Shown piece by piece: positions 1,945-14,517 of a DNA stretch of 26,029 nucleotides. The notes under the pieces were generated by a model. That model made no database searches. It had not been told where the DNA came from and saw nothing but the letters and a program-made list of their open reading frames with translations. Every line of letters starts with the position of its first letter. Position 1 is the first letter of the stretch. The stretch spans positions 1 through 26,029 of IMG/VR virus record IMGVR_UViG_3300025849_000188; one strand, 5' to 3'. The position numbers and the translations under genes were made by a program. The stretch is from a virus.

Positions 1945-3838
1945 ACCAGTTATTACCGATTTGACCGTCACCATCAAGGATATCGCAGTCATAAATTTTG
2001 GCAGCATCACGAAATGCTCTTACCATAATTTCTTGTACTTCTTCAGCTTGATTTGCAGGACATTCTACTTCGAATTCATCGTGATAGAAGATAAGAGGAG
2101 AAACATCTAAGTTCTTCTCTTCGAATTCTTTCATAGCCTGTGCTACAGCAGCCTTACAAGTCAAGGCTTCAAAGCTTTGTAGTAGGTAGTTAAGAGCCTT
2201 GTGAGAGCTATCGCAGTAGATCTTACGACCATCGAGAGCAGGAATCCAAGCTTTACCTGGAGTACGGCTATCTGTTTTGTGATAGATTTCATTTAGCTTT
2301 TCGTTTAGTTCTTTCAAGCCTGGAATAGCTTTAGTAAAGTCAGCACGTTTTTGCTTACCTACTGTTTTATTCCGTGAACCTGTTAGGATAAGCCCTAGCT
2401 TTTCAAAGCCAGCACCGAACAAGAAGGCATACAAGAATGGTTTCGCTGTTGAGCGATCACATCCAAGTGCATCAGCATTTCGTTGGTGAACATCACCGTC
2501 AATTACTTCAGCTGTATAGTCTTCATTCTTTAGGTAGTGGCAGAAAGCTCGCATCTGGTTACCTGAGGAGTCGGCGCCTACAATTACGTTACCTTCTTCA
2601 CAAATGAAGAGTTCACGCATAGCACGACCCCATGTAGCTCCTGCACCAGGGACGTTTACGATGCCGCTGTGGCGAGCGCGGCCAGTAGGAGTAGCGATAG
2701 TAAAGCACCCTCCATGCAGCTTTTGGTTTTCGTCGAGATTCTCGATCCATCCCCTGAGGATACCAAAGCGAGAGCGAGTAGTATAATAATAATCAATAAG
2801 CTTTCCATCAGTTCCTAGCTTTCCTAGGGATTCAGAACAAAGCTTTGGAGAGATCTTTACGAACTCGCCTCCAATTCGTTTCCAGTTCCAGTCTAGAGGT
2901 TCCCAGCCGATACTATCGAGCCAGTCTTTAACGCTATCCATGTTGCCAAGGTTAGCTTTAATAATTTCTACACGGGAGTGTGGACCCCATATTGTACGTT
3001 TATGAAGAGCGTCTTCTTGATCAAGCTTATGCCACTTAGCAATATGCATTGGATACTTACCGTTCTTCAAGAATTCAACTTCTTTAGGACCGGTTTTATC
3101 TACTGGCTTAACGATGTAACCGAGTTTAGGTTCAATACGCTTTTCAATCTTTTCCATAATCTTACGCATACGCTCATAGAGCATTTCAGCGCGAGGTTTG
3201 TTTAGCTTCCAGCCTGAAAGTTCAGCTTCAGCACAGAATTTAGCTACATCGTGTTCGATACGAAGAGAGGTAGCAATTAAGGGCTTTTGAGCTTTGTAGG
3301 CACGGAATTCTTTCATGAGATATTGATAAACTTTAACGTTCAATTCTACGTCTCTGACGCAGTAAGGGAGCATCTCGTCATCCCATTGGGCAAAGGCCTT
3401 ACCTTTACCATACTTCTCTTCCATACGTTTAGCGAAGTCATCTTTAGGATACTGGAACGCATCGCCCCATGTAGCTAGATTATGACGACCGTTACGGAAG
3501 CGCTTATAGTTCAATGTCTGTGATAAGAGCATTGTATCTACGATAGTTACCGTATTAGGCGGCACCCATCCAGTGATTTTCTTTAATGCAGGAAAGTCAT
3601 ACCCGACAACATTGTGTCCGGATAGCATCTTTGCATTATTGAGGAAGTTTCTAAATTCATCGAGAGGCTTACCCTCTTTAGCGTGGTCACTGAAAATGTG
3701 CTGCTCACCCGTATGTACGTCGATGGCCACTACACAGTATACTTTACTGATTTCTGATTTATTACCGTCTTTAAACAGCAAGCCATCAGCTTCAATATCG
3801 AATACGTAGTGACCTTTACTTGTAGGTGTATCAGTCAT
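1931..3838 (-). CDS. T7-like family A DNA polymerase with 3'-5' exonuclease
   Basis: This is the replicative phage DNA polymerase, 635 residues compared with 704 in T7 gp5. The exonuclease domain has DIE (D14, E16), an Asp near 81 and YCVRD (Y159, D163). Polymerase motif A is DSSGNQMR at 423-430. Motif B has R462, K466 and Y470. Motif C is HDE at 586-588. T7 Y526 (E. coli F762) is Tyr here, T7 Y530 is Phe474, and the usual motif A Glu (T7 E480, the steric gate) is Gln428. The segment between exo and palm is short, so the T7 thioredoxin-binding loop is probably absent or reduced. AAGGAAA precedes the ATG at 3838. The 59-aa gene ends 10 nt upstream. Confidence 0.96.
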   Translation of the reverse strand: MTDTPTSKGHYVFDIEADGLLFKDGNKSEISKVYCVVAIDVHTGEQHIFSDHAKEGKPLDEFRNFLNNAKMLSGHNVVGYDFPALKKITGWVPPNTVTIVDTMLLSQTLNYKRFRNGRHNLATWGDAFQYPKDDFAKRMEEKYGKGKAFAQWDDEMLPYCVRDVELNVKVYQYLMKEFRAYKAQKPLIATSLRIEHDVAKFCAEAELSGWKLNKPRAEMLYERMRKIMEKIEKRIEPKLGYIVKPVDKTGPKEVEFLKNGKYPMHIAKWHKLDQEDALHKRTIWGPHSRVEIIKANLGNMDSVKDWLDSIGWEPLDWNWKRIGGEFVKISPKLCSESLGKLGTDGKLIDYYYTTRSRFGILRGWIENLDENQKLHGGCFTIATPTGRARHSGIVNVPGAGATWGRAMRELFICEEGNVIVGADSSGNQMRAFCHYLKNEDYTAEVIDGDVHQRNADALGCDRSTAKPFLYAFLFGAGFEKLGLILTGSRNKTVGKQKRADFTKAIPGLKELNEKLNEIYHKTDSRTPGKAWIPALDGRKIYCDSSHKALNYLLQSFEALTCKAAVAQAMKEFEEKNLDVSPLIFYHDEFEVECPANQAEEVQEIMVRAFRDAAKIYDCDILDGDGQIGNNWYDVH

Positions 3839-7812: not shown

Positions 7813-7992
7813 TTATAGTAGTGTAATAGCTTGAAGTTCCTGTTCGGTACATTCAAATACTTTTACACCGTTTGAATAAAACTGATAGACACCGTCTTCG
7901 ACAGAGCCTTTATCACCTTCTATTCGTTGAAGCATAGTTTGGTCATCCCTTGTATACTTCAAAAGCCAGGTAAACCGACTAGAAGAGGTCAT
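7813..7992 (-). CDS. Small hypothetical protein (59 aa)
   Basis: I chose the ATG at 7992, which overlaps the last codons of the SSB gene (the SSB stop TAG lies inside this frame). This gives MTSSSRFTWLLKYTRDDQTM and a total of 59 residues. A second possible start is the ATG at 7935, with AAGGG upstream. The C-terminal half (VYQFYSNGVKVFECTEQELQ) looks like a small beta-hairpin plus helix. The function is unknown; coupling to the SSB gene is likely. Confidence 0.62.
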   Translation of the reverse strand: MTSSSRFTWLLKYTRDDQTMLQRIEGDKGSVEDGVYQFYSNGVKVFECTEQELQAITLL

Positions 7993-8488
7993 CTTCGTCA
8001 ACGTTGTTATCACCGAAAGAATCAGAGGCTGTAACAACTTCTGTTTCAGTTAGCTCAAAGTCATCGTCACGTGGAGCAGCTTCGTATAGCTTGTGTGTAG
8101 TAATCTGTACAGCCATTAGCATTGAAGCAACACCTTGGCGACCGCCTACATCGTAGTCATACTGGTATACACGTACGTTACCGACAGAACCGTGACCGAT
8201 AGTGTCTGGATCAATCTCTTTGAGTTGACCGTTAACTACTTTAACTGGATCTACTGGAGTTCCATCACGTTTCTTTGATTTCTTTTTAACAGTACATTTA
8301 AAGAAGGTGTTACCGTCTTTGTCTTCGTCTTTCTTGACGTTTAGGTTGGCATCTTTCCACTCTTGAGCGGTAGCTTTGTCGTGTGTACGGATTTGAATTT
8401 CCCAAGTAGGTTGATCTTTATCGAAAGTATCGTTTGGTTTACTTGGATTTAGTCGTGCCCACCATAGTTCTGCGTTTTTAATAATCAT
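7979..8488 (-). CDS. Single-stranded DNA-binding protein, T7 gp2.5-like
   Basis: The product (169 aa from the ATG at 8488) has a beta-rich body with many Lys and aromatic residues and an acidic C-terminal tail ending DEDDLF. This tail is the hallmark of phage and bacterial SSBs, which use an acidic tail with a terminal Phe to contact partner replication proteins. The mid-part (NGQLKEIDPDTIGHGSVGNV and a following YQYDY) fits the oligonucleotide-binding fold of gp2.5-like proteins. AAAGGAA sits 9 nt upstream of this ATG; a start at 8509 with AGGAC is also possible and would add 7 residues. It would coat ssDNA and stimulate the polymerase encoded downstream. Confidence 0.8.
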   Translation of the reverse strand: MIIKNAELWWARLNPSKPNDTFDKDQPTWEIQIRTHDKATAQEWKDANLNVKKDEDKDGNTFFKCTVKKKSKKRDGTPVDPVKVVNGQLKEIDPDTIGHGSVGNVRVYQYDYDVGGRQGVASMLMAVQITTHKLYEAAPRDDDFELTETEVVTASDSFGDNNVDEDDLF

Positions 8489-8614: not shown

Positions 8615-11272
8615 TTATGAAAATGCAAACTCGTTTTCGAGAATAGCATCTACTTCTAGGTTACCAAGAGGGACATCAATGTCTTCTACTTGGAGTTCTT
8701 TCTTAAGATGTTCTAGAGGTTCTGATGAGTATAAGTCAACAAAGCAGTCTCTAACATACTTAAATAGGTTTTGCATATCAGTTGGATGACTACCGAATGA
8801 GTCGTGAACAGTAATAAGGTTAAAGCCGTTATCGCTGCACTTCATTTGAGTCATAGCCAAGTGAGCTGCATCGAGTGAGTGAATAACATTAGGAGAAGCA
8901 CCTTGGGCTTGTTTGCCTTTGATAATCTCTGGATACTCAATTACTCGTGTTCTTAGTTGTAGTCTGTCTTTACGATTAAGACCACCTTTGTCAAGTTCGT
9001 TATTATCGCCGTAGTGAGCATTGATTTTATCTCTACGACCTTGCATGTAATATTGTGATACAGGGAAGCCTGTTCCAGGTACACGCCATTGTAATACTTC
9101 ACCTCTTGATTCAGCACGATTACCGGCTTCCTCAAAGAGCTTAAGCATAGCCATAGGACGAGGAATAGCAACTTCACAGCCTGCATAAACCTTACGACCC
9201 ATATAAGCGCCCCACTTGTGTTCTAGTTCAAGTAGTAGCTCAATGTCATGTTTACGAGCATCTTTAATTTGTTGCTCGCCTAAGCCGTACTCAGTACCGC
9301 CGTATGGAAGTGTCATTACATTACGCTTAACAATCTTACGCTGTTCTTTCTTGTCTGTAATACGCATCCAGAAGACTTCTGAAATAACGGAATCAGCTTT
9401 CTCAAACAAAGCCCGATTATCTCTTTCTAGGTACTTAGAAATGTCTTTAACAGACTTTTTAAAGTAATCACGACCTACAGTGTTCATCCAGTTCATTGTA
9501 AGCTTATTTTTACGAATACGAGAGACGAGCTTGTTCGCCTTGTCTTCTTCCATAGTAAGCATAGCAAGAGGTACACGACCTTCAAGACGAGCCTTAGGTG
9601 CTGTCCGAAGTTTCAAGTGATAGAGCCGAGTAGTGATTCTATCAATCTCTGTTTCATCTTTCTTTTCTCGTTTACGTAGCGTATCAAGTTGAGATGTAAG
9701 AGAGGTAATCTCTGCTTTTAGTGCAAGGATATCCTCAATGTACTTGTTAGCAGCTACTTGTTGGTCAGCTGTTACATTAGCATTAAACTGTTTCCATACA
9801 GATTCAGCTACATAGGCATAGAGATCGCCGGCTACTTCATCACGTTCAGCTATAGTATCATCCATAAAGTTAGGTGTACGAGTTACATTAACTTGTTCGC
9901 CTGTATCCTCATCACGAGTAATAGCAGCTAGATGTTGACAGCCGTTGTTAGTACCGTCGATATACACTACAAACCCTGTTTCATATTCGAAAGGGTTAGT
10001 TAGAGTGTGAGCGTTGTAAATCTCCATAATAGTAGAGATGAACTGCCAAGGCTTATCTGCTGACATCCACCCTTTGTTATTAAAGGGATCGCCAGCCCAC
10101 TCAAGCCATGTATCAAGGTTCTTCTCTGCAAAGCTTACACGCTCATACAAAGCAATCTTATCGGTCTTTGCACCATCTTCTCTACCAGAGTTACCGGCCC
10201 AGTTATTAGCAGCATTAAGCAGAAGCCACTGATAGCCGTCTTTACCTAAAGGTTTTTGTTCTGCAGTGAGCAATAAGCCTTTTGCAGCATCTGTACCTTG
10301 TTCGTGCAGGTAGGCGGTTGCTGGATACTTACGACCACGGAAATCATAGTAATAAAGATGATAGAAAGCATTATCAGCAGGTATGGTAGCCTCATTGATT
10401 TCTCCTTTATCGTCTACAAGGTCTTGACCAGGGATATCACCCATAACCTTAGCTGTATGTAGAACAGAGGTTGCTTCACGTAGCTTACTTTCTTTAGCCT
10501 GAGGATTTGTCATCTCCCAGATATCACCGAAAGCGTCTTGTTCAGTACGTAAGGCCCACTCGAATAGTTCTGCTACATCCCAGTTAACTTTCCAGCCGAT
10601 CTTTTGAGACTGATTAACAGCATTAAAAAGAGTCGGGAAGTCTTCAGGGTTTAGGCTTTTGAGTATGTCTTGGTCGTTTGTTTTGATTAGCTTGAAGCCT
10701 GCATTCATAGACCCGTGCCAATCGTTATATGGTTCCTTTTGAGGATACTTATTACTTTCCTTAACGGGAATAGTCTCACGTAAACTTGTGAGCTTCCTAT
10801 CATCCTTAGAGAGGATAAAGTAATCGCTGTGTCCTTCTTTGTTTTTACCTCTAGTTTCGATACGCTCAACTAATCCTAACAATTCGAAGGAGTATAGAAT
10901 ATGCGCACCCATCTGTAAGGCGATAGATGTGTTTGTTGCAGTCTTGTAGATTGCTCGATGGTTACCTTGTAGGTATCCGTACCTCGTACGAGCTTTCTTT
11001 GCAAATGGCTGGCCAATCTTAAGTATGAGATCGCCCATGCGCACCTTATCTTCGCTATCTTTGTGGCCTTCACGGGTGTAAACGTAAACGCATTCAATAG
11101 CTCTGTTTAGTAGCTTGTCTAAGTCTTGTTGAGTTCTAGTAGCTAGCAGAATAAACTTACCTACTTGCTTTAGACCGTTTTCATAAGCTGGTTCTCGGCG
11201 ATGGCCGAAAGCCTCGAGCATAGCTCTCTTACGAATACTTACACCAAGCTCATGTCGAAGCTTTTTACTCAT
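8615..11272 (-). CDS. T7-type single-subunit RNA polymerase
   Basis: The start at 11272 has AAGGAG about 10 nt upstream and an ATGAGTAA overlap with the preceding gene, giving 885 residues (T7 gp1 is 883). Motif A is YIDGTNNGCQHLAA with D439. Motif B has R645, K649 and Y657 in RKIVKRNVMTLPYGG, matching T7 R627/K631/Y639. Motif C is VHDSFG with D824. The C-terminus ends EFAFS, like the T7 FAFA foot. Compared with T7, D439 lies about 98 residues earlier (shorter N-terminal region), while the motif A-B spacing is 210 instead of 94. The extra part is a charged, heptad-like segment around residues 508-565. The enzyme would transcribe phage genes from its own promoters. Confidence 0.97.
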   Translation of the reverse strand: MSKKLRHELGVSIRKRAMLEAFGHRREPAYENGLKQVGKFILLATRTQQDLDKLLNRAIECVYVYTREGHKDSEDKVRMGDLILKIGQPFAKKARTRYGYLQGNHRAIYKTATNTSIALQMGAHILYSFELLGLVERIETRGKNKEGHSDYFILSKDDRKLTSLRETIPVKESNKYPQKEPYNDWHGSMNAGFKLIKTNDQDILKSLNPEDFPTLFNAVNQSQKIGWKVNWDVAELFEWALRTEQDAFGDIWEMTNPQAKESKLREATSVLHTAKVMGDIPGQDLVDDKGEINEATIPADNAFYHLYYYDFRGRKYPATAYLHEQGTDAAKGLLLTAEQKPLGKDGYQWLLLNAANNWAGNSGREDGAKTDKIALYERVSFAEKNLDTWLEWAGDPFNNKGWMSADKPWQFISTIMEIYNAHTLTNPFEYETGFVVYIDGTNNGCQHLAAITRDEDTGEQVNVTRTPNFMDDTIAERDEVAGDLYAYVAESVWKQFNANVTADQQVAANKYIEDILALKAEITSLTSQLDTLRKREKKDETEIDRITTRLYHLKLRTAPKARLEGRVPLAMLTMEEDKANKLVSRIRKNKLTMNWMNTVGRDYFKKSVKDISKYLERDNRALFEKADSVISEVFWMRITDKKEQRKIVKRNVMTLPYGGTEYGLGEQQIKDARKHDIELLLELEHKWGAYMGRKVYAGCEVAIPRPMAMLKLFEEAGNRAESRGEVLQWRVPGTGFPVSQYYMQGRRDKINAHYGDNNELDKGGLNRKDRLQLRTRVIEYPEIIKGKQAQGASPNVIHSLDAAHLAMTQMKCSDNGFNLITVHDSFGSHPTDMQNLFKYVRDCFVDLYSSEPLEHLKKELQVEDIDVPLGNLEVDAILENEFAFS

Positions 11273-11672
11273 CCTCGTTGTCTCCTTTAGGTGCATTTTC
11301 AGACCAGTCTTTTAGCATTTCGTGAAATACTTGTACTGCTTCATCATCTGTCCTAAAGGGAGGAGTTAGACCCATAGCATCGACTTCCTTGTTAGTAAGC
11401 GGACGTTCTTTTCGCTCACCTTCAGGAACCGGTACAGAAACAACTTCTCGGACTTGCTTGACTGGCTTGTGGCCGGCTCTGATAAAGTCTACAATAAAGT
11501 TAATGTCAGCATTACCATCTTTGTACTTAACTACAATGAAGTCATCCTGCTTATTTCCGTATGCCATAGTATTCCATAAAGCCATAGCAGCCTTATGTGT
11601 TTTTCTCATATTAACCATTTCAGGTTCTCGACCTAGTTTGATAATACGAAATTCGATTTTTGGTTTACTCAT
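11265..11672 (-). CDS. Hypothetical protein upstream of RNA polymerase (135 aa)
   Basis: I chose the ATG at 11672 because GGGGGAAA stands just upstream. The frame is open to another ATG at 11684. The 135-residue product is charged, with a beta-like start (KIEFRIIKLGREPEMVNMR), a central KYKDGNADINFIVDFIRAGH stretch and an acidic tail. It overlaps the polymerase gene by 8 nt (ATGAGTAA), so the two are translationally coupled. Its function is unknown; a role in early takeover or in modulating the polymerase is possible from context alone. Confidence 0.72.
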   Translation of the reverse strand: MSKPKIEFRIIKLGREPEMVNMRKTHKAAMALWNTMAYGNKQDDFIVVKYKDGNADINFIVDFIRAGHKPVKQVREVVSVPVPEGERKERPLTNKEVDAMGLTPPFRTDDEAVQVFHEMLKDWSENAPKGDNEDE

Positions 11673-11724: not shown

Positions 11725-11774
11725 AAAAAAAAAATTGGGAGTTGAATGCCCCCTGACGTCACCTTTTTACTCCC
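11725..11774 (-). terminator. Possible alternative terminator hairpin with U10 tract
   Basis: On the minus strand GGGAGT (11774-11769) can pair with ACTCCC (11742-11737), followed at once by AA and ten T residues (11734-11725). This has the form of an intrinsic terminator, though with a weak 6-bp stem and a 26-nt loop that contains the palindrome TGACGTCA. The same GGGAGT is also the start of the 3' arm of the much longer stem at 11746-11858, so the two folds compete. Confidence 0.45.
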
Positions 11775-11858
11775 TATACAGGGATACTCTAATATCTACT
11801 GAAACAGTAAATAAAAGAACACTCCCGAAGGAGGTAAAAAAGTGACGCCAGGGGGCAT
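11746..11858 (-). promoter_or_regulatory. Long (about 29-bp) RNA stem in the RNA polymerase leader
   Basis: The minus strand has arms at 11858-11830 (ATGCCCCCTGGCGTCAC, T6, ACCTCC) and 11774-11746 that pair over 29 positions with three G-U pairs and one mismatch. The three wobbles pair only as minus-strand RNA (they are A-C on the other strand), so the sequence is kept as an RNA fold in the direction of transcription. The 55-nt interior contains a CTCC-TTCG-GGAG mini-hairpin, ACTG-TTT-CAGT and TCCCT-GTAT-AGGGA. It could be an RNase III site, as in T7 early mRNA, or a regulatory switch for RNA polymerase expression. No gene lies in 11673-11867. Confidence 0.75.
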
Positions 11859-11867
11859 CGGGATCAC

Positions 11868-12628: not shown

Positions 12629-12706
12629 TTAAGCAAAATAAACCATTTGAAGATACACGAGGGCAGCTACAAATGAAATTAATACAAATTTAAATGTTTC
12701 AGACAT
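12629..12706 (-). CDS. Membrane microprotein (25 aa)
   Basis: A 25-codon gene with an excellent Shine-Dalgarno site (AAAGGAG, 6 nt before ATG). The product is MSETFKFVLISFVAALVYLQ plus MVYFA: one hydrophobic helix with almost no soluble part. It is the first gene downstream of hammerhead ribozyme 1, so it would be the first gene on the downstream cleavage product. Confidence 0.72.
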   Translation of the reverse strand: MSETFKFVLISFVAALVYLQMVYFA

Positions 12707-12738
12707 AAATGTCTCCTTTACAAAAGGTTGAATAAGAC

Positions 12739-12797
12739 CTATCTCATCAGTGCCGGTAGGTCAGTTCCGACAGACCCTCCGTAGAGGGTTTCGATAG
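12739..12797 (-). ncRNA. Type II hammerhead ribozyme, copy 1
   Basis: On the minus strand, 5' to 3': stem II 5' side CTATC (12797-12793), GAAA (12792-12789), stem III CCCTC-TACG-GAGGG (12788-12775), U16.1 and C17 (12774-12773), stem I TGTCGG, a 10-nt loop, CCGGCA (12772-12751), the core CTGATGA (12750-12744), and stem II 3' side GATAG (12743-12739). All invariant core bases are present, A15.1 pairs with U16.1, and the cleavage triplet is GTC, so cleavage is expected between 12773 and 12772. Stems I and III are closed by loops and stem II is open, which defines type II. The element starts at the base after the TAA of the upstream 69-aa gene. Confidence 0.93.
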
Positions 12798-13007
12798 TTA
12801 ACACATTTCCCAGATATTGCTCTCGTTTGTTACAACGAGTTGATAACCAGGATCGGTTTGAAAAAGCTCACACTTAGTTGTGTAAGTACCTTCACCATCT
12901 CCATCGTGATCTTCTCCAATTTGAAGTTCTTCTCGTTCCATGTATTCCATGACCTCGATAATGTTTTCAAATTGAATAGTCTCGACTTCTTTAGTATATA
13001 CACTCAT
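12798..13007 (-). CDS. Acidic hypothetical protein (69 aa)
   Basis: I chose the ATG at 13007 (GAGGTG 5 nt upstream), giving MSVYTKEVETIQFENIIEVM and 69 residues; the longer frame to 13019 adds only MRCI. It is strongly acidic, with a central EDHDGDGEGT stretch that might bind a cation, and ends in EMC. Its TAA stop abuts hammerhead ribozyme 1. The function is unknown. Confidence 0.72.
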   Translation of the reverse strand: MSVYTKEVETIQFENIIEVMEYMEREELQIGEDHDGDGEGTYTTKCELFQTDPGYQLVVTNESNIWEMC

Positions 13008-13015
13008 GATACACC

Positions 13016-13273
13016 TCAATCGTTAGAGTGTTTTTTCCAAGACTTACGCATTTTATTGCAGTCTCGAATACCAACATCCATGCATACTTCAAACATAGTT
13101 TTAGTAGCATGAAACTTACCACGAATTTCCATCATAGTCATTTCATGGTGCCACATCAGAAAACCAGCATTGAAAACCGCTGCAATAAGCAACGCATAAC
13201 TTTGCCATACGATTAACCGAATTGGTGAAATAATCCGCGCATATACCCGTTTATTTTTCTTGCGTTTTGCCAT
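13016..13273 (-). CDS. Small basic membrane protein (85 aa)
   Basis: The second of two tandem ATGs (13276, 13273) is preferred, with GGAG 7 nt upstream. The 85-residue product starts MAKRKKNKR, then has one hydrophobic helix (about residues 17-39, SPIRLIVWQSYALLIAAVFN onward), and ends in a basic region with two Cys. A type II membrane orientation, with the basic N-terminus inside, is likely. It overlaps the preceding 42-aa gene by 23 nt. Confidence 0.7.
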   Translation of the reverse strand: MAKRKKNKRVYARIISPIRLIVWQSYALLIAAVFNAGFLMWHHEMTMMEIRGKFHATKTMFEVCMDVGIRDCNKMRKSWKKHSND

Positions 13274-13379
13274 CATTTAGCTCCACATATTTATAATTGT
13301 AATTCATAAAACGATCCCATGCTTTTTGCTCAAGCGGAGATCGCTTTGGTTTAAATAAATTTTTAATAAATGCAAACAT
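13251..13379 (-). CDS. Small hypothetical protein (42 aa)
   Basis: A 42-codon gene with AAAGGTG about 5 nt before the ATG. It reads MFAFIKNLFKPKRSPLEQKA and continues to NYKYVELNDGKTQEK. The N-terminal amphipathic FAFIKNLFKPK could touch the membrane. Its end overlaps the start of the next gene by 23 nt. No motif is recognised. Confidence 0.65.
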   Translation of the reverse strand: MFAFIKNLFKPKRSPLEQKAWDRFMNYNYKYVELNDGKTQEK

Positions 13380-13388
13380 ATCACACCT

Positions 13389-13679
13389 TTAAAATTTGAA
13401 CGAAACTTCAACCTTTCGCTCTTCTATAATTTTTGCTACAGTAAGAAATGTAGCAGTTCGATTAAGAGTTTCTTCTGAGAAATTTCTTTTCAGGTAGCTC
13501 TTAACTTTACGCTTAGTCCAATCTTCATCGTAGACTTCACGTTCTAGTACTGGACCCGTGTACTCGTAGTTTACAGGTTCAGCTTTTGCATAAGATGCTG
13601 ACATAAATATCAACATTACAATTAAAATGCCACAAAGACGATTAAGAAACTTTGAGGCGTATTCAACAAAATTTTCCAT
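13389..13679 (-). CDS. Small exported protein (96 aa)
   Basis: The ATG at 13679 is preferred (GAAGGAT upstream, just after the stop of the preceding gene); the longer frame to 13718 would run inside that gene. Residues 18-33 (CGILIVMLIFMSASYA) plus KA form a signal-peptide-like segment with a likely cleavage after AKA. The mature part of about 62 residues is basic and helical. It is probably periplasmic; the function is unknown. Confidence 0.7.
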   Translation of the reverse strand: MENFVEYASKFLNRLCGILIVMLIFMSASYAKAEPVNYEYTGPVLEREVYDEDWTKRKVKSYLKRNFSEETLNRTATFLTVAKIIEERKVEVSFKF

Positions 13680-13686
13680 TCTTAAA

Positions 13687-13824
13687 TTATCCTTCGTTAA
13701 TAGTTTTTTGCTGACCATCTTTCATAGTAACATAAAATACTGTTTGACCTTGTTCGGTAACAGTAAGTGTGAAACCTTTGATGTAGCCTTGACGACGAAG
13801 TTCGTTTAAAATTTGAATGCTCAT
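13687..13824 (-). CDS. Small hypothetical protein (45 aa)
   Basis: A 45-codon gene with AAAGGAG 7 nt before its ATG. The product begins MSIQILNELRRQGYIKGFTL, followed by beta-hairpin-like VTEQGQTVFYVTMKDGQ and a short tail. The helix-then-hairpin layout could be a tiny winged-helix-like fold, which is speculative. It is the second gene after the first small promoter-like repeat. Confidence 0.7.
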   Translation of the reverse strand: MSIQILNELRRQGYIKGFTLTVTEQGQTVFYVTMKDGQQKTINEG

Positions 13825-13852
13825 TTTGAGTCTCCTTTAAGAGGGTGTAAAG

Positions 13853-13915
13853 TTAAATATTGTGAATTATCGTTAAGATAAACCACATAATCATTATGGA
13901 ATTGAAAGTAGCCAT
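13853..13915 (-). CDS. Membrane microprotein (20 aa)
   Basis: A 20-codon gene reading MATFNSIMIMWFILTIIHNI, almost entirely one hydrophobic helix. AAAGGAG lies 6 nt before the ATG, and the promoter-like repeat at 13930-13949 is just 14 nt upstream. The strong ribosome site placed right behind a promoter-like element is the main argument that it is translated. Confidence 0.62.
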   Translation of the reverse strand: MATFNSIMIMWFILTIIHNI

Positions 13916-13929
13916 TGTAACTCCTTTAG

Positions 13930-13949
13930 GTTATTCCATATAAGAAAGG
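13930..13949 (-). promoter_or_regulatory. Promoter-like 20-bp repeat, copy A
   Basis: The minus strand reads CCTTTCTTATATGGAATAAC, identical over 20 bases to copy B at 14415-14434 and found nowhere else intact in the window. Both copies are intergenic and precede a ribosome site. The TATATGGA part resembles the TATAGGGA initiation region of T7-class promoters. No convincing sigma-70 -35 box lies 17 nt upstream of TATATG. Initiation near GGAATAAC would leave a leader of only about 20 nt before the 20-aa gene. Phage polymerase promoter is the preferred reading; a host promoter or an operator is possible. Confidence 0.6.
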
Positions 13950-13973
13950 TAATTTTCCCATCTTTTTTCTAGC

Positions 13974-14034
13974 CTATCTCATCAGTGTTGGGAGGCAAGT
14001 TCCAACAGACTCCCCGTAGGGAGTTTCGAATTAG
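13974..14034 (-). ncRNA. Type II hammerhead ribozyme, copy 2
   Basis: On the minus strand: stem II 5' side CTAATTC (14034-14028), GAAA (14027-14024), stem III CTCCC-TACG-GGGAG (14023-14010), TC (14009-14008), stem I TGTTGG, a 10-nt loop, CCAACA (14007-13986), CTGATGA (13985-13979) and GATAG (13978-13974). The GTC triplet predicts cleavage between 14008 and 14007. Relative to copy 1, stem III has two paired changes and stem I has one C-G to U-A change plus one G-U to U-A, all keeping pairing. Stem II is weaker: GA/TC, a two-base bulge, then TAG/CTA. The TAA stop codon (14033-14031) of the upstream gene is inside this stem. Confidence 0.9.
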
Positions 14035-14378
14035 TATCCTTTAGAAAAACAATAAATCTTAACTCCTGCATAACCACCAGCAATAACGCCAGCAGCAACA
14101 ATAGCCGTAATAAAAGTAGGGTCAAGAACAATAAATGCACCACCAGCTGTTACGCCAGTTGCAATTGCCCAGGCACCAGCAGATATCCCAATACCAGCAA
14201 TAGTAACGCTACCAGCAGTAAAAGCACCAGTTGCCATACCAGCAATAAAAGTTGAATACTTGCTTTCAGAAAGTTCACAAATTTCAATTACAGGATTTTT
14301 AGATGGCGTAGCATAAGCATTAGAGGTAAGAGTAAGGGTCATGGTGATAGTCATAAATAATGCAATAACAAATTTCAT
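14031..14378 (-). CDS. Exported glycine-rich membrane protein (115 aa)
   Basis: The ATG at 14378 is preferred, with GGAG 7 nt upstream; the longer frame to 14630 would cross a terminator and a promoter-like element. Residues 1-23 (MKFVIALFMTITMTLTLTSN then AYA) are a clear signal peptide. The mature part has a Cys-containing start and then long Gly/Ala-rich hydrophobic segments (GMATGAFTAGSVTIAGIGIS and more), which suggest glycine-zipper membrane helices. It is the first gene after the late/early boundary and is followed at once by ribozyme 2. An envelope-acting role, such as exclusion or pore formation, is possible but unproven. Confidence 0.72.
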   Translation of the reverse strand: MKFVIALFMTITMTLTLTSNAYATPSKNPVIEICELSESKYSTFIAGMATGAFTAGSVTIAGIGISAGAWAIATGVTAGGAFIVLDPTFITAIVAAGVIAGGYAGVKIYCFSKGY

Positions 14379-14414: not shown

Positions 14415-14434
14415 GTTATTCCATATAAGAAAGG
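14415..14434 (-). promoter_or_regulatory. Promoter-like 20-bp repeat, copy B
   Basis: This is identical to copy A (13930-13949). It lies about 38 nt downstream of the terminator at 14472-14504 and 36 nt before the ATG at 14378. Just upstream, ACAAAAA and TTTTTGT around AGTGGGG form a small hairpin; the A6 run and TGGG segment upstream are loosely shared with copy A. The terminator-then-promoter order suits the start of a new transcription unit. Confidence 0.6.
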
Positions 14435-14471: not shown

Positions 14472-14504
14472 AAAATACCCCCAATCTCCGAAGAGACCAG
14501 GGGT
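14472..14504 (-). terminator. UUCG-tetraloop intrinsic terminator
   Basis: On the minus strand ACCCCTGGTCTC, TTCG, GAGATTGGGGGT form a 12-bp stem (three G-U pairs) closed by the very stable C(UUCG)G tetraloop, followed by ATTTTA. It is 13 nt after the stop codon of the last gene of the structural block. It would end late transcripts, in the manner of T7 T-phi. The wobble pairs and the UUCG exist only on the minus-strand RNA. Confidence 0.88.
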
Positions 14505-14517
14505 AAAATACTGTGAG

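Follow-up and report, generated by a model that had tools for sequence, protein, structure and literature searches.

The small-gene operon upstream of the RNA polymerase gene in IMG/VR record IMGVR_UViG_3300025849_000188 (26,029 bases, all of which were analysed and are referred to here as the window) contains two type II hammerhead ribozymes, copy 1 (12736–12797) and copy 2 (13971–14030). Both are on the minus strand, and each sits between a TAA stop codon and the ribosome-binding site of the next gene. From sequence comparisons we propose, with a probability of roughly 0.8, that both elements are self-cleaving intercistronic mRNA processing sites.

Genes on the minus strand run from tail fibre-like genes through the small-gene operon to a single-subunit phage RNA polymerase gene (8615–11296), and then to those coding for DNA-binding proteins, a DNA polymerase, a dCMP deaminase, and an ATPase; no tRNA or tmRNA was found in the window. 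The operon proteins have no confident family match in Pfam or PHROGs. The TAA directly before copy 1 (12798–12800) ends a 69-aa ORF (12798–13007) and that directly before copy 2 (14031–14033) ends a 115-aa ORF (14031–14378), with 5 nt and 3 nt, respectively, between the stop codon and G12. Hand-read ORFs follow on the same strand, one of 24 aa after copy 1 (12632–12706, ATG at 12706, ribosome-binding site AAAGGAG at 12713–12719) and one of 20 aa after copy 2 (13853–13915, ATG at 13915, AAAGGAG at 13921–13927), and about six small ORFs (20, 45, 96, 42, 86, and 69 aa; 12798–13915) lie between the two predicted cleavage sites.

Hairpins mark both edges of the operon, also on the minus strand. At the upstream edge there is an intrinsic-terminator-like hairpin (14476–14505) with 13 pairs, a TTCG loop, and a T-rich tail, and at the downstream edge, before the RNA polymerase gene, a very long hairpin is followed by a T run (11745–11859). 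The latter is 115 nt long and nearly unbroken, with 30-nt arms that are 87% complementary (-71 kcal/mol, z -10.4). A search of annotated phages gave no match to it, and its role might be that of a terminator, an RNase III site, or a structured RNA. A 20-mer, CCTTTCTTATATGGAATAAC, is present in identical form just after copy 2 (13930–13949) and upstream of the 115-aa ORF (14415–14434). These are its only occurrences in the window, both in operon leaders and embedded in a 51-nt repeat (76%), and it is a candidate phage promoter or leader element, perhaps one that the phage polymerase uses as its promoter; none of the loci retrieved from other records contains its 15-base core, CTTATATGGAATAAC. 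The operon gives no support to a sigma-70 reading, since shuffled sequences contain more promoter-like matches than it does.

Read directly, the minus strand from 12800 to 12730 is UAA CUAUC GAAA C CCUC UACG GAGG GUC UGUCGG AACUGACCUA CCGGCA CUGAUGA GAUAGGUC, and the element order GAAA, stem III, GUC, stem I, CUGAUGA is that of the type II form. The preliminary description had placed a hammerhead at 12739–12797 on this strand with a complete core, a 6-bp stem I that includes one G-U pair, a stem III, and a 10-nt loop I, and direct reading bears out all of these. Stem I (UGUCGG/CCGGCA) and its loop occupy 12751–12772, stem III is CCCUC(UACG)GAGGG (12774–12789), with five pairs plus the A15.1-U16.1 pair and a UACG tetraloop, and the CUGAUGA core is at 12744–12750. 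The cleavage triplet GUC has C17 at 12773, and the predicted cut falls between this and the following base, 12772. In both copies the invariant core (CUGAUGA, GAAA, A15.1-U16.1, H17) is intact, loops close stems I and III, and stem II is open.

The strands of stem II in copy 1 are CUAUC and GAUAG, the latter 3' of CUGAUGA, and form 3–5 pairs. Stem II had been described as open, which is right, and as 5 bp long, which is not retained: three pairs plus a pseudoknot, the form of the class, is more likely, because the 5-pair version takes a base that the pseudoknot needs. This loop I–tail pseudoknot, a tertiary contact already known from the majority of type II hammerheads and absent from the earlier account, joins loop bases 12762–12759 to tail bases 12739–12736, and the motif therefore extends to 12736. 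The fold of lowest energy for copy 1 has no stem II; instead, the tail pairs with the 3' part of the core. Two further descriptions are to be dropped: the label 'early' for the upstream gene is not supported, and type II is not the rarest topology, since Perreault et al. (2011) report that its frequency in bacteria is on a par with that of types I and III (PMC3088659).

Copy 2, which the earlier account lacked, is 82% identical to copy 1 over 57 nt and has its predicted cut between 14008 (C17) and 14007. Between the two copies 4 of 19 pairs are changed on both sides with pairing kept, one pair has a one-sided change with pairing kept, and two pairs are lost; there is a single unpaired difference from GAAA to the CUGAUGA core. 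The pseudoknot has four of the class pairs in copy 1 and three in copy 2, and includes one compensatory A-U to G-C change. Stem II is weaker in copy 2, with two pairs and a U-U mismatch; lacking a third pair there and also one pair of the pseudoknot, copy 2 may be slow to cleave.

A GC-rich stem III hairpin with a UACG loop soon after a stop codon is also what a non-catalytic structured 3' end or a weak terminator resembling a hammerhead might look like. We regard this as very improbable, as no T run follows the hammerhead copies, neither copy was called as a terminator although terminator-like sites nearby were, and termination does not need the invariant core bases.

The pattern CGAAAC-N-GTC-N-CTGATGA matches twice in the window and never in 100 dinucleotide shuffles. 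The check suggested in the preliminary description, a comparison with the Rfam type II covariance model, gave a mixed outcome: RF02276 matches copy 1 with 33.7 bits and copy 2 with 33.4 bits (E 0.002), but these do not reach the gathering score of 37, a threshold set in curation and not a property of the structure. Pattern scans of IMG/VR that required at least four pairs in stems I and III and at least two in stem II gave, among the matches listed, 444 distinct type II hammerheads from viral contigs, and 40 of the matches listed, the window's two included, have identical dimensions and align without gaps. A covariance model built from 38 type II hammerheads of other phages, with the window copies excluded, gives 68.7 bits for copy 1 (E 4.6e-16) and 72.4 bits for copy 2, and nowhere else in the window scores above 14.3 bits.

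In the 40-sequence alignment, 95.9% of pair cells are standard, pseudoknot included, and two-sided changes occupy 193 cells, compared to a shuffled mean of 50; when the partners are slid by 1–3 columns, pairing falls to 30–41%. Loop–tail covariation in 115 non-redundant members that have a 22-nt stem I region, among the matches listed, places 12x7, 11x8, and 13x6 as the top three pairs and 14x5 fifth; Perreault et al. report that this pseudoknot is critical for the speed of cleavage (PMC3088659). Core, stems, covariation, the score in the held-out model, and the second copy, together with the like placement of hundreds of phage hammerheads described below, uphold the earlier assignment of a sense-oriented type II hammerhead immediately behind a stop codon, and make the predicted self-cleavage of the polycistronic mRNA at 12773/12772 its best-supported function; the identity of the element is near certain.

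Type II hammerheads in phages, their clusters flanking genes, and the idea that they cut phage transcripts into smaller mRNAs were described by Perreault et al. (2011; PMC3088659). The window copies share with this class (RF02276) the core, the open stem II, the closed stems I and III, the pseudoknot, and the gene-flanking clustering in a phage, and differ in lying 3–4 bits under the Rfam cut-off and, in copy 2, in the shorter pseudoknot and stem II. Among annotated phages copy 1 has only weak short matches. A hammerhead of Roseobacter phage CRP-7 (MK613349, about 566–636) is 81% identical to copy 2 over 51 nt, has 71.5 bits in the phage model, and likewise follows a reading frame, a 49-codon ORF ending in TAG just before the core; it differs in belonging to another phage with a MoxR ATPase gene nearby, in its GCC/GGC stem II, and in that the upstream ORF is unannotated. 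The tandem hammerheads of A. tumefaciens, A. caulinodans, and C. scindens (PMC3088659, Fig. 3) are similar in that a single polycistronic RNA contains several ribozymes, arranged around individual genes or small gene blocks, but the genes are unrelated, and cleavage is demonstrated there and predicted in the window.

The nearest annotated relatives of the RNA polymerase are in the Naomviridae, phages DSS3_VP1 and DSS3_PM1, at 34–35% identity. These have similar gene content and direction around the RNA polymerase, dCMP deaminase, and DNA polymerase genes, and the same kinds of genes downstream, with the dCMP deaminase and DNA polymerase genes in the opposite relative order to that in the window; neither gives a match to the Rfam type II model. 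A single-sequence polymerase query found no close relatives, and an alignment-based query gave 80 loci. In 50 contigs with polymerase relatives there is no match to the Rfam type I, Rfam type II, or phage models, which is weak evidence of absence. Our own descriptor finds two convincing type I hammerheads among the polymerase-relative loci, in L511 and L528; its type II candidates there were rejected, having short stems or lacking a proper stem II. The L511 example (2395–2442, plus strand), whose phage encodes a related RNA polymerase, has a complete type I core and a 6-pair stem I, and lies just past a tRNA-Thr gene (2316–2391), separated from its CCA end by a few bases; this hammerhead is absent from the Rfam gathering list. 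The L528 example (7988–8042, plus strand) is between two genes upstream of the related RNA polymerase gene, and a 59-codon upstream ORF terminates in the UGA of the ribozyme core.

This sporadic occurrence among polymerase relatives, the two similar copies within one genome, and the weakened stem II of copy 2 are in keeping with degenerate or silent relics, inherited hammerheads without a present role that were duplicated within the phage. Relics are expected to lose core bases, however, and here the cores are intact and the copies have diverged with compensation, so we consider this improbable.

The ribozyme type is already known, and the new part is its placement. When reading frames of 30 codons or more are counted and stop positions are assigned by a simple ORF rule, 352 of 441 type II hammerheads (80%) among the matches listed start 0–10 nt beyond a sense stop codon; for random positions the figure is 5.6%, and for the antisense side 10%. 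If the minimum is raised to 60 codons, 72% of the matches listed still do so, against 2.5% at random. The gap from stop to core peaks at 2–6 nt, and a ribosome-binding site and start follow within 60 nt in 77% of cases (median 27 nt), compared to 14.5% for random positions, both among the type II matches listed. Of the 75 listed matches with a 2-nt gap, 58 have TAG as the stop, versus 24% of background stops; this excess arises because the AG of the stop is the ribozyme consensus at that place, and the stop's own G therefore forms a stem II pair. None of the 74 loci with at least two copies, among the matches listed, has them on both strands, and the median spacing is 514 nt. A separate scan gave 86 testable type I hammerheads among the matches listed, with the stop before stem I in 34, within stem I in 16, and formed by the core's own UGA in 21.

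Annotated genomes offer specific examples. The last base of Urza CDS 73, like that of Puginator CDS 78, is also the first base of a hammerhead match, RcSimone-Hastad CDS 60 overlaps its match by two bases, two bases separate gene end and match in YPCBV-1, and Roseobacter phage CRP-212 has two stop-adjoining hammerhead sites between annotated genes. There are exceptions, several of them in Streptomyces phages and Dulem virus 39, in which the hammerhead is 12–23 nt after a stop or has none nearby. We note that the Streptomyces phages Puginator, Urza, and Triumph have five to seven type II model matches within approximately 4–5 kb (seven in 5 kb in Puginator and five in 4 kb in Triumph), many of them intergenic, and that these hammerheads are not among the annotated features shown. 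In IMGVR_UViG_3300001336_000098 two type II hammerheads are above the Rfam cut-off, with 42.7 and 38.9 bits; the one at locus L123 follows a TAG stop and has the UACG stem III loop seen in copy 1.

The rule of stop codon, ribozyme, and ribosome-binding site is common to types I and II and suggests a role, and could in part come from the lack of space in compact genomes. We found no report of the stop-codon rule in the open-access literature searched, so priority is not established; the words 'stop codon' are absent from the text of PMC3088659.

The closeness of stop and core allows a second, rather doubtful reading, in which the ribozyme is gated by translation. A terminating ribosome would cover the stem II strand and the GAAA core, and cutting would occur only if the upstream gene were untranslated, such that the ribozyme would sense translation of that gene and sever the downstream genes accordingly. 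Given the size of a terminating ribosome's footprint, the 2–6 nt gap seen in most of the matches listed puts the core inside it, and both the TAG preference at gap 2 and the use of the type I core's UGA as the stop are consistent with such coupling. A related and equally tentative suggestion is that phage hammerheads are general intercistronic punctuation, with the stop codon part of the element, either as a UAG that supplies a stem II base or, in type I, as the UGA of the core, and with cutting coupled to termination of upstream translation. The same spacing is expected if the ribozyme merely fills the gap between stop and ribosome-binding site, however, and a single-subunit phage polymerase can outrun ribosomes, so that cutting may precede translation.

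As processing sites, the two elements would act as follows. On minus-strand transcription of the operon each RNA would fold into stems I–III with the loop I–tail pseudoknot and cut once, at 14008/14007 and at 12773/12772. The upstream message would keep its whole reading frame and stop codon and end about 25 nt beyond, just past the stem III UACG hairpin, which in copy 1 would form its 3' end; standard hammerhead chemistry predicts a 2',3'-cyclic phosphate there. The downstream message would carry a 5'-OH where it begins, at the stem I hairpin, and retain its ribosome-binding site, and the approximately 1.23-kb block of six small ORFs would be released as a separate mRNA. The phage would probably gain in that the stability and expression of each gene block could be set independently of its neighbours, with no need of a host nuclease. 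In phage T7, cuts at intercistronic RNase III sites leave hairpin-ended mRNAs and require host RNase III; the window RNA would be alike in its intercistronic cuts and hairpin ends, and unlike in cutting itself.

Two ribozymes in the same orientation flanking about 1.23 kb have a geometry that also permits two cleavages and a ligation to give a circular or excised RNA from the 14007–12773 block. This is most unlikely, as Perreault et al. sought products of this kind, whether spliced or circular, from tandem phage hammerheads without detecting any (PMC3088659). For the processing role there are precedents in the same study: tandem sets of phage hammerheads from three bacteria were shown to cleave in vitro and one of these sets to do so in E. 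coli as well, and a transcript 5' end in HF1/HF2 is within 3 nt of a hammerhead site (PMC3088659).

A 2017 review treats the role of prokaryotic and phage hammerheads as an open question (PMC6155905). With the rule of stop codon, ribozyme, and ribosome-binding site, the question of role becomes a direct RNA-end mapping experiment, and the rule is shared by isolates that can be grown, including Streptomyces phages, Rhodobacter phage RcSimone-Hastad, and Roseobacter phages CRP-7 and CRP-212. It also provides a practical route to annotating mRNA units in phage genomes.
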